64,000 nt of DNA, from the NCBI GenBank assembly GCA_016207825.1, contig JACQZI010000007.1, positions 1 through 64,000 of the forward strand. Reading direction: 5' to 3'. Position 1 is the stretch's first letter. Every line of letters begins with the position of its first letter. The notes under the pieces were generated by a model. It was not told the origin of the DNA. It saw only the letters and a program-made list of their open reading frames with translations, and made no database searches. The position numbers were made by a program, and so were the translations under genes. The stretch comes from Planctomycetota bacterium. Lineage in GTDB: Bacteria; Planctomycetota; MHYJ01; JACQXL01; JACQZI01. This document shows, piece by piece, positions 30,787-34,544 of this stretch.

Positions 30787-31839
30787 TTACTTCCCCTGCA
30801 ATGCCAACTGTCCGCAGGCGGCGGCGATATCGGCTCCCTTGCTTTTCCTCAGCATAGCAATTATCCCGCGGCTTTTCAGGATATTCTGGAAGTCCTCGAT
30901 GGTTTTATATGAAGGCGATTTGTAAGGCAATCCTTTAACTTCGTTATATGCTATCAGATTTATCTTACTCCACGATTCTTTGGCGAGTTTCGCGAGTTCT
31001 CCGGCATGGTCTTTACCGGTATTGAATTCGTCTATCATCAGGTATTCAAGCGTGACATCCTTGCGGGTCAGGGCGCGATATTTACCGGCGGCTTTGATTA
31101 TCTCATTTATCTTAATCTTTTCCGCCATGGGAATGATTTCTCGGCGCAGTTCGTCATTCGGCGCGTGGAGCGATATTGCCAGGTTTGTCGCCACCTTCTC
31201 CCTGGCGAATTGGATGATTTTATCCGGTATGCCGACGGTCGAAACCGTGATACGGTTTAAGCCAAGCCCCATTCCCCATTCGGCGTTAAGGATAGTCAAC
31301 GCCTTTATAAGGTTATCATAATTAAGGAACGGCTCCCCCATTCCCATTACTACTATATTATTCACCTTTATTTTATTGCTCAATGCTCCTTGCTCAATGC
31401 TCATTTGCTGTGCCAACAGTACCTGTTCCACTATCTCATTCGCCTCAAGCGAACGAATCAGCCCCTTTTGCCCGCTGGCGCAGAAATGGCACTTGACCGG
31501 GCAACCCGCCTGGGTGGAGATGCAGAGCGTCGTGCGCCCCGCGTCAGAAAGCACCACGGTTTCGATGCAATTGCCGTCTGCCAGTTTTACGAGGAGTTTT
31601 CTGGTCCCGTCTTTGGAAGCAAAGACCTGCTCTACCTTAGATGAAATAACCATAAAACTATCGGCAAACGTGGATTGGATTTCAGCGGAGAGATTGGTCA
31701 TGGATTTGAAATCCGTCACGCCCTTGCGGTAAACCCAATCAAGTATTTGTTTAGCGCGATATTTAGGAAAACCCGATTTAACACACTCCGCCTCCAGTTC
31801 ATGGAGGGTAAATGACGTAACCAAAGTCTTATTTTCCAT
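30787..31839 (-). CDS. rlmN: 23S rRNA (adenine2503-C2)-methyltransferase
   Basis: A 350-residue radical SAM enzyme (also able to methylate tRNA A37 in some bacteria). The cluster-binding cysteines are C113, C117 and C120 (CPVKCHFC). MGMGEPFLNYDN, SLHAPNDELRREIIP and the C-terminal RKSKGADIAAACGQL, which carries the conserved methyl-carrying cysteine region, are intact. ATG 31839 gives a normal N-terminus (MENKTLVTSFTLHELE); a GTG 69 bp upstream would add an unlikely extension. No strong ribosome site is visible. Confidence 0.93.
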   Translation of the reverse strand: MENKTLVTSFTLHELEAECVKSGFPKYRAKQILDWVYRKGVTDFKSMTNLSAEIQSTFADSFMVISSKVEQVFASKDGTRKLLVKLADGNCIETVVLSDAGRTTLCISTQAGCPVKCHFCASGQKGLIRSLEANEIVEQVLLAQQMSIEQGALSNKIKVNNIVVMGMGEPFLNYDNLIKALTILNAEWGMGLGLNRITVSTVGIPDKIIQFAREKVATNLAISLHAPNDELRREIIPMAEKIKINEIIKAAGKYRALTRKDVTLEYLMIDEFNTGKDHAGELAKLAKESWSKINLIAYNEVKGLPYKSPSYKTIEDFQNILKSRGIIAMLRKSKGADIAAACGQLALQGK

Positions 31840-31992
31840 AATGGTTCGTTTTCTATCTTTAATAAAATAAGAGGTTGGGGGAAAAGGCAGTAATCCTGTC
31901 CTACCCACCTATAGCACCCCCATAACAGCACTAATACACCTCCGTTATAACACAAACTCACCTTTATGACTATTTAATTCCTCCAGAGTAGC

Positions 31993-32168
31993 GGTTCAAA
32001 TCCGCTGTTATTATGGTTTAAAATCTCCGCTGGCATGGTTCAAGATTACTATTATGCCGGTTCAAGACTACCGATGCTATGGCTCAAAGCCGCCTACGTA
32101 ATGGCTCAAAACCACCGCTTGTATAGCTTAATATTACCGATGGCACGGCTCAATATTACCGTTATTAT
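31993..32168. repeat. phased tandem array of eight 22-bp repeats
   Basis: Eight consecutive 22-bp units begin at 31993, 32015, 32037, 32059, 32081, 32103, 32125 and 32147 without any indel. All but one start GG[TC]T[CT]AA; the seventh starts AGCTTAA. Several share TACCG at columns 11-15 and end TAT. A degenerate ninth unit may precede (31971-31992). The first unit (GGTTCAAATCCG) nearly matches the unit at 20387 in the other array. It lies between the gene at 32349 and rlmN, both leftward. The rest of 31840-32348 has no gene, only a CCCGAC/GTCGGG hairpin (32291-32307). Confidence 0.85.
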
Positions 32169-32290
32169 GGCAGCATATAATCATAATAGGACATGGCAAA
32201 ACAACTCAAAGAACAATATAGTATTAGACAGTTATTTACTCGGTTCCCAAACGTATTTTCCGGTCTTGTCGATATAGCTTTTTTCATCGC

Positions 32291-32307
32291 CCCGACATAA
32301 AGTCGGG
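32291..32307. repeat. CCCGAC/GTCGGG mini-palindrome
   Basis: CCCGAC-ATAAA-GTCGGG is one of several short palindromes with a CCCGA/TCGGG stem in this window. Others are at about 141-157, 13607-13620, 18489-18506, 18757-18769 and 51378-51393. It is followed by a CAGAGAACACGGAG fragment of the CACAGAG repeat type. Confidence 0.5.
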
Positions 32308-32348
32308 ACTTCGCTACGCTACGCAGAGAACACGGAGAGGATTGATAG

Positions 32349-34544
32349 TTATTTACCTTCGGATTCAAAGCAGTCAATTAGCTCTTCAAACACCGGCGAC
32401 CAGGAAGGATTGCTTCCCCTGGTTAATACCTGAACGCCAGAGCCATCTGCGTTCATCACCAGCACCCCCATATCGCCGCCCGTCCAGGAAAGAAAAGTAA
32501 TCTTTTTGCCATCCGGGCTCCATGACGGGCCATTCCCATTAACCGGAGTTATCATTTTCTGGTTTTTCCCATCGGCATCCATGACATAAATCCGGCGGCT
32601 TAACATGTCTCCAGCCGTACCGTCCCGGTCTGAACAAAACGCGATCTTTTTGCCATCCGGCGACCAACTAGGATTCGAATTATCTCCGGCACTATCAGTT
32701 AACTTAACCGTCTTTTTGTCAGCAATATCCATAACATAAAGCTGGTATTGCTTGCCATCAGCTGCCTCATAAACAACTTTTTTCCCATCCGGACTCCATC
32801 GGCCGACACAACTATTATTCTGGTCGATTAGTTTTTGCTGGTTTTTTCCGTCCATATCCATTAAATAAACTTTAGTGGAGCCATCTTTATCCGAAGAAAA
32901 GGTGATTTTTTTTCCGCCCGGGCTGCAATCAGAGATGCCTTCATTAGCCGCATCATTAGTTAGTTGCCTCAAATTTTCGCCATCCACATCCATGATATAA
33001 ACATCCTGATTTCCTTTTCGATTAGAAACGAATATTATTTTTTGCCCATCCCGGCTCCAAGTTGCAGCACTATTATTGGCTTCGGTATTAGTAAGCGGCT
33101 TCTTGTTTTTGCCGTCAGTATCCATTATCCAAATCTGATGCGGCTGGGTAGATGACGCAAAAAGAATCTTCGGCTTGACTCTTTCCCAGAGGGCGAGAAG
33201 AACTTGATTGGCACGGGCTTTCACCTCCTGGTCCTTATCCTGTTCGGCATCCTGCAACGCCTTAACCAATTTCTTGAAATCCGCTTTCACCGCCTGGGTA
33301 TTTTTCTTGGCATAAAGGGTCTCCCAGTATTTGACGATTAATTCACTCCCGAGGGCGATTAGCCTTTTATGGGCTGACTCCCGTTTCTCCGAGAAACTGT
33401 CACCCAGTTGTTTGATTAATTCAGGCAGGTTATCCCGGGCGCCAATGCTATCCACCTTCACCTTAAACTTTTCCAGCGATTCAAGCGATTTTGTCGCGCT
33501 TTGATTCTCCGGGTCAATTACTAGCGTCATCATAAAAGCCTGGGCGGCAAAATAGCGGTATCCTTTATTAAGAGCAGTATTTCCCTGCGCCAAATATTTC
33601 TTGGCTCCTTCTGTTTTTATTTTAGCGAAAGTCTTCCCGAATTTATCCGACTGCTTGATTTTCTGCCTGACCGAATTAAGCGTTTTGGTTTCATCCGCTG
33701 TCGGGTTGCGTTTGTTTTCCAGTATTTTCAAAGACAGGCGATAGTATTTTGTCGCTTTGACGGATTCATTTAATTTCTCGCAAGCCTCAGCTAATTTCAT
33801 GTATACGGGCAACGGATTTTCGGAGTTAACCAAGGTTTTCCTGAAATAGTCTTCGGCCTCCTTGAATTTCGACTCCGCAAGGCTTTTCTGCCCCAGCCCG
33901 TAATACAGGTTTTCCAGTTCTTTATTTACATTAGAAGAAACCCCTTCCTCTTTTTCCAGAGATGCAACCTGCTTCAACGAATCTTCTGCCACCGTAATAC
34001 CGGAGTCGATTTTCAATACCAAGTTAAATATATCCGCAGCAATAAGATAATCCAGTTCTTCAATCGTTTCCTTTCCTAATAGCAACAATTCCGCCGTAAT
34101 CTCCTGTCCGCATTTTACCAAAGCCTCCTCAAAAGCGCCAATCTGCTTTATTTTGATTTCCGCCTTATCTTTAATCTTAACTTCTTCATCCGATAAATCC
34201 TCTTTTATTTCCAATATTTGAAGGCACGTTTTATAGTATTTTAATGCGCTTATTTCATCTTTGAGGCATTCGCAGGTTTCTGCGGCTTTAACCAAAGCCT
34301 TCATAAAATCAGGAACATATTCCAACGATTTGCTGAAAAGATTCAATGCCTCATCGTATTTCTTCTCGTTGAATTTTTGCTCGCCCAATTTATAGAAATC
34401 TACCGCAATCTGCGTGTTTTTATCCGTCGGAGAGTCTTCGGCAGTGATTCTGACTCCAGTGAAACAAATAATACAAATCAAGTTTATTATTATTGTAGTA
34501 ATGGTCGTGAACAAGTAATATTTAGGTGGGAAACAAATTTTCAT
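32349..34544 (-). CDS. TPR and TolB-like (PD40) beta-propeller exported protein
   Basis: A 731-residue protein. A signal or anchor helix lies at about 10-35 (LFTTITTIIINLICIICFTG). TPR-like repeats follow (about 45-370; FYKLGEQKFNEKKYDEALNLF, YYRLSLKILENK). A propeller of PD40/WD40-like repeats covers about 470-731, with the recurring WSPDGKKIAF and IYVMDADGKN elements (at least six). TolB-type propellers usually sit in the periplasm and bind partner proteins; a link to Tol-Pal is not shown. It is monocistronic and leftward with a plausible promoter at 34568-34597. Confidence 0.82.
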   Translation of the reverse strand: MKICFPPKYYLFTTITTIIINLICIICFTGVRITAEDSPTDKNTQIAVDFYKLGEQKFNEKKYDEALNLFSKSLEYVPDFMKALVKAAETCECLKDEISALKYYKTCLQILEIKEDLSDEEVKIKDKAEIKIKQIGAFEEALVKCGQEITAELLLLGKETIEELDYLIAADIFNLVLKIDSGITVAEDSLKQVASLEKEEGVSSNVNKELENLYYGLGQKSLAESKFKEAEDYFRKTLVNSENPLPVYMKLAEACEKLNESVKATKYYRLSLKILENKRNPTADETKTLNSVRQKIKQSDKFGKTFAKIKTEGAKKYLAQGNTALNKGYRYFAAQAFMMTLVIDPENQSATKSLESLEKFKVKVDSIGARDNLPELIKQLGDSFSEKRESAHKRLIALGSELIVKYWETLYAKKNTQAVKADFKKLVKALQDAEQDKDQEVKARANQVLLALWERVKPKILFASSTQPHQIWIMDTDGKNKKPLTNTEANNSAATWSRDGQKIIFVSNRKGNQDVYIMDVDGENLRQLTNDAANEGISDCSPGGKKITFSSDKDGSTKVYLMDMDGKNQQKLIDQNNSCVGRWSPDGKKVVYEAADGKQYQLYVMDIADKKTVKLTDSAGDNSNPSWSPDGKKIAFCSDRDGTAGDMLSRRIYVMDADGKNQKMITPVNGNGPSWSPDGKKITFLSWTGGDMGVLVMNADGSGVQVLTRGSNPSWSPVFEELIDCFESEGK

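Follow-up and report, generated by a model that had tools for sequence, protein, structure and literature searches.

How can a tandem array change the sequence of its units and keep their spacing to the base? This question is raised by an intergenic stretch of a planctomycete genome, positions 31993-32168 of a 64,000-nucleotide piece of contig JACQZI010000007.1 (hereafter the window), where a preliminary description, made from the sequence alone, reported eight 22-bp repeats in perfect register between rlmN and a TolB-like gene. The genome, here called G000, is represented by a 2.9-Mb assembly that is 97.6% complete.

The eight units are, in order, GGTTCAAATCCGCTGTTATTAT, GGTTTAAAATCTCCGCTGGCAT, GGTTCAAGATTACTATTATGCC, GGTTCAAGACTACCGATGCTAT, GGCTCAAAGCCGCCTACGTAAT, GGCTCAAAACCACCGCTTGTAT, AGCTTAATATTACCGATGGCAC, and GGCTCAATATTACCGTTATTAT, with zero indels between them. 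Pairwise identity among them averages 0.60 (z 12.5 over the window), while 2000 first-order-Markov shuffles, each represented by its best score over periods 18-26, reach a maximum of 0.39. Thus, the exact units are confirmed, and shuffled sequence does not reproduce an equal 22-bp signal. Self-match amounts to 0.59, 0.58, 0.56, and 0.65 at lags 22, 44, 66, and 88, respectively, and to 0.19-0.32 at the other lags reported. One detail has to be corrected: the AGCTTAA head, formerly assigned to the eighth unit, belongs to the seventh in order.

The array is also longer than first noted. The adjoining 88 bp on the rlmN side match the core profile at 0.43 in register 0, the best of 22 registers, compared to 0.26 for shuffled sequence, and none of 5000 shuffles reaches the score. 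In total, the array comprises about 12 units or 264 bp (Table 1). TRF, run at score 30, overlooks it because the units are too diverged; the window copy is probably an old array in decay.

Table 1. Coordinates of the array and its flanking genes in the window.
Feature	Position	Strand	Remarks
rlmN, radical SAM 23S rRNA methyltransferase	30787..31842	-	Pfam RlmN_N and Radical_SAM; 81% identical in congener
Four further, more diverged units	31905..31992	.	In register with core; based on fit to core profile
Core 22-bp lattice, eight units in perfect register	31993..32168	.	Degenerate consensus GGYTCAARAYTACCGNTGYTAT; based on identity compared to shuffles
Possible extra degenerate or partial unit	32169..32190	.	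Weak and uncertain (p 0.09); register 0 best of 22
Gene with TPR and WD40-like/PD40 beta-propeller (TolB-like)	32349..34544	-	End approximately 180 bp from array; other gene in congener

Stops occur in all six frames of the window array, and likewise in most of the 22-bp arrays introduced below, such that a coding repeat was rejected. A tRNA or T-arm reading, suggested by the first unit with its AGCGGTTCAAATCCGCT, was dismissed as well: ARAGORN finds no tRNA within the array, and the other units bear no resemblance to a T-arm. No Rfam family maps over the array. The preliminary description was right in setting it apart from CRISPR, since the 22-bp units are continuous and no identical repeats alternate with unique spacers.

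The reported placement is correct as well: both flanking genes are located on the minus strand. The rlmN start codon (about 31840) lies approximately 60 bp from the array edge. The closest named contig is JAGVQN010000047.1 of 'Candidatus Brocadiia bacterium isolate DeMMO3_52', which represents a genome of the same genus (G001). There, a 22-bp lattice with the unit GGGGTGGGTATATGGACTAACC occupies the corresponding site beside rlmN, even though the next gene is replaced. The congener thus retains the lattice with another sequence. As a side observation, the TPR/PD40 gene (window 32349-34544) corresponds to a short-chain dehydrogenase in the congener (L075:3294-4184), a near-identical copy of which is present elsewhere in G000; rlmN and an epimerase gene farther out are unmoved despite this swap. 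Also in the window, positions 32290-32335 hold a short dispersed REP-like sequence, GACATAAAGTCGGGACTTCGCTACGCTACG, with copies in G000 and other genomes of the order and occasional matches farther out.

The window unit has zero further copies elsewhere in its genome. A single weak pattern match for it led to a second 22-bp array composed of a different unit (L014/L176). An agnostic, ungapped scan over all periods from 14 to 60 was applied to 1.39 Mb from three related genomes of the Planctomycetota ('Candidatus Brocadiia'), comprising 785 kb of G000 (27% of the genome), 400 kb of G001 (about 33%), and 200 kb of G003 (7%), the latter from another family of the same order. It revealed 32 noncoding 22-bp arrays, 15, 9, and 8 in the respective samples. 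Noncoding 21-bp arrays form a smaller, mixed class (4, 5, and 1), and all other periods together contribute three arrays (16, 16, and 14 bp). When indels are allowed, the picture is the same: of the 51 noncoding arrays that TRF reports at 100 bp or longer, 46 repeat at a multiple of 21 or 22, and the remaining five have periods of 24, 56, 71, 133, and 102. Such arrays are rare in further orders of the class and phylum (345 kb sampled) and in other bacterial rlmN loci (779 kb).

The window array is thus a degenerate member of a genome-wide noncoding set of 22-bp lattices. The preliminary description had proposed to search the genome for lattices with the same head; lattices were found, but the GGYTYAA head is absent from the other arrays. 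At the level of whole genomes we counted a single pattern, three GGTA copies spaced 22 bp, along with a backwards control pattern, in 99 genomes. Counts are high in four of them only (G000, G001, G003, and G007) and near zero in G002, G004, G005, G006, and G008 of the same order. This patchy occurrence indicates that the arrays are dispensable for the lineage.

The 32 arrays comprise about 5-19 units each, with a median of 13. The unit is nearly always specific for its locus: only about five of 861 array pairs are clearly related, e.g., L189 and L195, both of G001. A unit family with TCAGTGAACCRTTC (L264, L272, L281, L282, L293, and L298) is, unlike most units, shared across genomes, namely G001, G003, and G007 from two families. 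Within arrays, divergence is greatest in the edge units, and higher-order repeats occur in some, e.g., five-unit blocks in L240; TRF accordingly reports many arrays at periods of 44, 66, 88, and 110 bp. Diverged edges and higher-order repeats imply that copy number shifts by whole units or multi-unit blocks. Both features are also what unequal exchange predicts for neutral minisatellites, which would grow by slippage and unequal exchange and be tolerated wherever promoters are undisturbed, while equal-length recombination keeps the register. However, the usual turnover of such repeats would yield many periods and not one.

A further difference concerns indels. For each array, we slid its own profile over the surroundings, with the register not assumed. 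Among 345 unit steps, 341 are exact multiples of 22, and all four exceptions lie at array edges. Over the same arrays, substitution events number at least 904. In alignments of noncoding DNA outside the arrays, made for the same genomes under two gap settings, there is one indel per 7.5 substitutions, and hence approximately 120 indels would be expected within the arrays; as the substitution count depends on the unit genealogy, this number uses the lower bound. In simulated arrays passed through the same detection, steps fall off register in 28% of cases at the background ratio, in 6.4% at 1:50, in 2.6% at 1:200, and in 0.6% without indels, compared to approximately 1.2% observed. Detection bias is therefore not the explanation of the depletion. 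Because units share ancestry, the substitution load put into the simulation is a maximum, and for this reason we state the depletion as at least tenfold, which is below the nominal figure. Substitutions thus pile up freely in the arrays, while register-breaking indels do not persist, and the claim that spacing is conserved over sequence, which had held for the window array in the shuffle and congener comparisons, extends to all arrays. Locked spacing combined with varying sequence suggests that spacing matters here and sequence does not. Compensated indels within units were also counted, but nine units compared to 3.5 +/- 1.8 in controls are too weak to claim. For neutral minisatellites this depletion is difficult to accommodate, as it includes arrays too diverged to recombine well.

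Further cases of a kept site with altered sequence come from comparisons between genomes, although conservation of array position in gaps comprises few cases. 22-bp arrays with related units also follow the gene that ends at L249:10138 and occupy the orthologous gap in L267; the CCGAA..GG..TATAC core common to their units has shifted by one base, with the period unchanged. The L195 array of G001 lies opposite a weaker lattice in G000, decayed but in register (L238:8424-8555, where three units score 0.59 at best). An orthologous gap holds a 22-bp array in G000 and a 21-bp array in the congener (L176 and L299). No array was found beside the G000 ortholog (L174) of the gene next to the G001 array L185, or at corresponding genes across families. 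Neutral minisatellites, again, do not predict that a gap still holds arrays in both species once the sequence has turned over, and we consider this origin unlikely.

A seemingly conserved set of 21-bp arrays upstream of paired G000 and G001 genes was rejected. These genes are members of one uncharacterized protein family with 33-40% identity, and we set the case aside for this reason and because some of the arrays lie in open frames. The arrays are located 20-160 bp upstream of L168:18189-19138, L193:3165-4116, L242:499-1303, and L272:15149-16196; two of the four proteins start with MPKKDY, and none matches Pfam. Some 21-bp arrays of the GAAYGGTTC type have an open frame running through them and might specify heptad-like peptides, while those of L168, L193, and L199 have stops in all frames. 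Degenerate 21-bp arrays with their own unit each were also observed directly upstream of rlmN in two Verrucomicrobia loci (L106:4516-4746 and L121:4715-4945), where an upstream ORF may include them.

A single period with locus-specific units could also be the signature of a mutational process. An enzyme might duplicate local sequence at exactly 21-22 bp, for example if paired nicks or strand transfers two turns apart were then filled in, in which case the period would not reflect a selected function. Such an enzyme would account for the near absence of ordinary minisatellites, for the lack of arrays in most other genomes of the order, and for several gaps in which two arrays of unlike units lie side by side (L163, L192, L199, L264, and L291). 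By itself, however, it leaves unexplained why indels are missing from old and diverged arrays, the window copy among them, and no candidate enzyme was identified. We regard this origin as rather unlikely.

The distribution of the arrays relative to genes is not random. Among gaps of at least 350 bp, a 22-bp array is present in 9 of the 19 that are convergent, 14 of the 71 that are codirectional, and none of the 20 that are divergent (Fisher 0.0004 for convergent and 0.03 for codirectional compared to divergent gaps); a simple ORF rule was used to call genes, so these counts are approximate. The exclusion from divergent gaps argues against a classical promoter-operator role, but would also fit mere tolerance of neutral minisatellites. 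REP and BIME arrays of enterobacteria are likewise intergenic, avoid divergent promoter regions, and occur at gene ends and in convergent gaps. REP elements share one palindromic sequence and are spread by a transposase. The arrays described here have the placement in common with them but differ in sequence from locus to locus, and no shared palindromic unit was found.

Siting at gene ends would also suit an element that acts at the RNA level, i.e., a transcribed repeat RNA serving as a terminator-like structure, decoy, or string of hairpins with a spacing of 22 nt. Clear dyads are present in some units (L162, L161, and L167), and in L168 and L263 a similar loop is enclosed by different stems. 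However, a dyad or hairpin unit as a common feature had to be rejected, as 30 arrays taken together are not above shuffles (median p 0.66, combined p 0.20). The strand composition relative to the flanking genes follows no consistent pattern either, and with the lack of an Rfam family over the window array this makes an RNA element quite improbable.

What a protein could recognize in the arrays was addressed at the level of unit sequence. The tetranucleotide GGTA/TACC is present in 20 of 32 distinct units, compared to 5.7 in shuffles; in whole G000, however, the backwards control pattern is more frequent than three GGTA copies (79 vs 53), and due to this inconsistency GGTA is a candidate core only. 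Cyclic alignment of the units yields no significant common motif (4.44 bits compared to a null of 4.23 +/- 0.10 with a maximum of 4.45). An 11-bp harmonic in the conserved columns is weak (z 0.50 +/- 0.23). Strong intrinsic curvature at 10.5-11 bp was not found, the modelled signals being weak and model-dependent.

These data bear on the earlier proposal of an iteron or operator array that places a protein on one face of the DNA. Plasmid iterons and partition-site arrays are tandem repeats near two helical turns with protein on one face; in these systems, a single array of specific sequence lies next to the gene for the protein that binds it. The near-integral helical spacing is shared by our arrays (22 bp, 341 of 345 steps exact), and the one-face arrangement stays plausible. 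The arrays deviate from this model in lacking a general dyad and a common full-length motif: instead of one binding sequence across sites, there is only the short GGTA enrichment. Moreover, there are tens of arrays with differing sequences and with no common adjacent gene identified, the flanks of the other arrays having been annotated unsystematically.

Formally, the arrays resemble satellites and minisatellites: units within 10-200 nt are repeated head to tail at least four times, and length changes by whole units or multi-unit blocks. The period, however, is not free between loci, as 46 of 51 are multiples of 21 or 22. Prokaryotic satellites are described, in the part of the study drawn on here, as unique, mutually unrelated noncoding tandem arrays scattered through the genome, e.g., in Methanobrevibacter ruminantium, with repeat lengths that vary between arrays and species and a predominance of multiples of three and of short repeats derived from microsatellites (Subirana and Messeguer 2019, PMC6749651). 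Our arrays are similarly scattered, noncoding, and unrelated to each other; the locked 22-bp period, the indel depletion, and the conserved gap position distinguish them from the satellites as described there. Borg tandem repeats, according to the portion of the report considered, are pervasive, locus-specific, and derived from local sequence, and virtually absent in the host Methanoperedens; they are perfect, recent, located in ORFs in about half of the cases, and differ in unit length between loci (Schoelmerich et al. 2023, PMC9879509). Locus specificity and absence from most other genomes of the order are common to both systems, while the units analyzed here are, in comparison to that account, imperfect, noncoding, and of one period. 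A word-based literature search of partial coverage returned no account of intergenic arrays with a 22-bp period in Planctomycetes, and this is a weak argument for novelty.

Taken together, the arrays constitute a noncoding family defined by one main period, locus-specific sequence, depleted indels, and non-random placement. Our preferred reading, to which we assign a probability of roughly 45%, is that they are kept for their two-turn phase and probably serve as a scaffold for a hypothetical protein that reads one face of the helix. The property under selection would be the phase of two helical turns, and a DNA-binding or DNA-architectural protein or filament might sit cooperatively on one helix face every 22 bp. 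Such a binder would have low sequence specificity, with at most a short core for which GGTA/TACC is a candidate; because of this low specificity, units could drift or be replaced while the lattice stays. Siting at gene ends and in convergent gaps would fit an insulating, terminating, or supercoil- or nucleoid-organizing role better than promoter control. More tentatively, the arrays may represent a chromosome-wide class of elements defined by helical period instead of sequence, with dozens of intergenic lattices per genome that would each vary in sequence at a fixed two turns per unit and, through their phase, dock a hypothetical architectural protein at gene ends.

Regulatory and structural recognition of DNA normally proceeds via conserved sequence. 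Here the sequence turns over while the spacing stays, and consequently such arrays are missed by motif or homology searches; the window copy escapes even a tandem-repeat finder run at the usual threshold. Should the phase prove functional, these genomes would provide a natural, replicated experiment on the effect of helical phasing alone in a chromosome, for which several related genomes without arrays would serve as controls.
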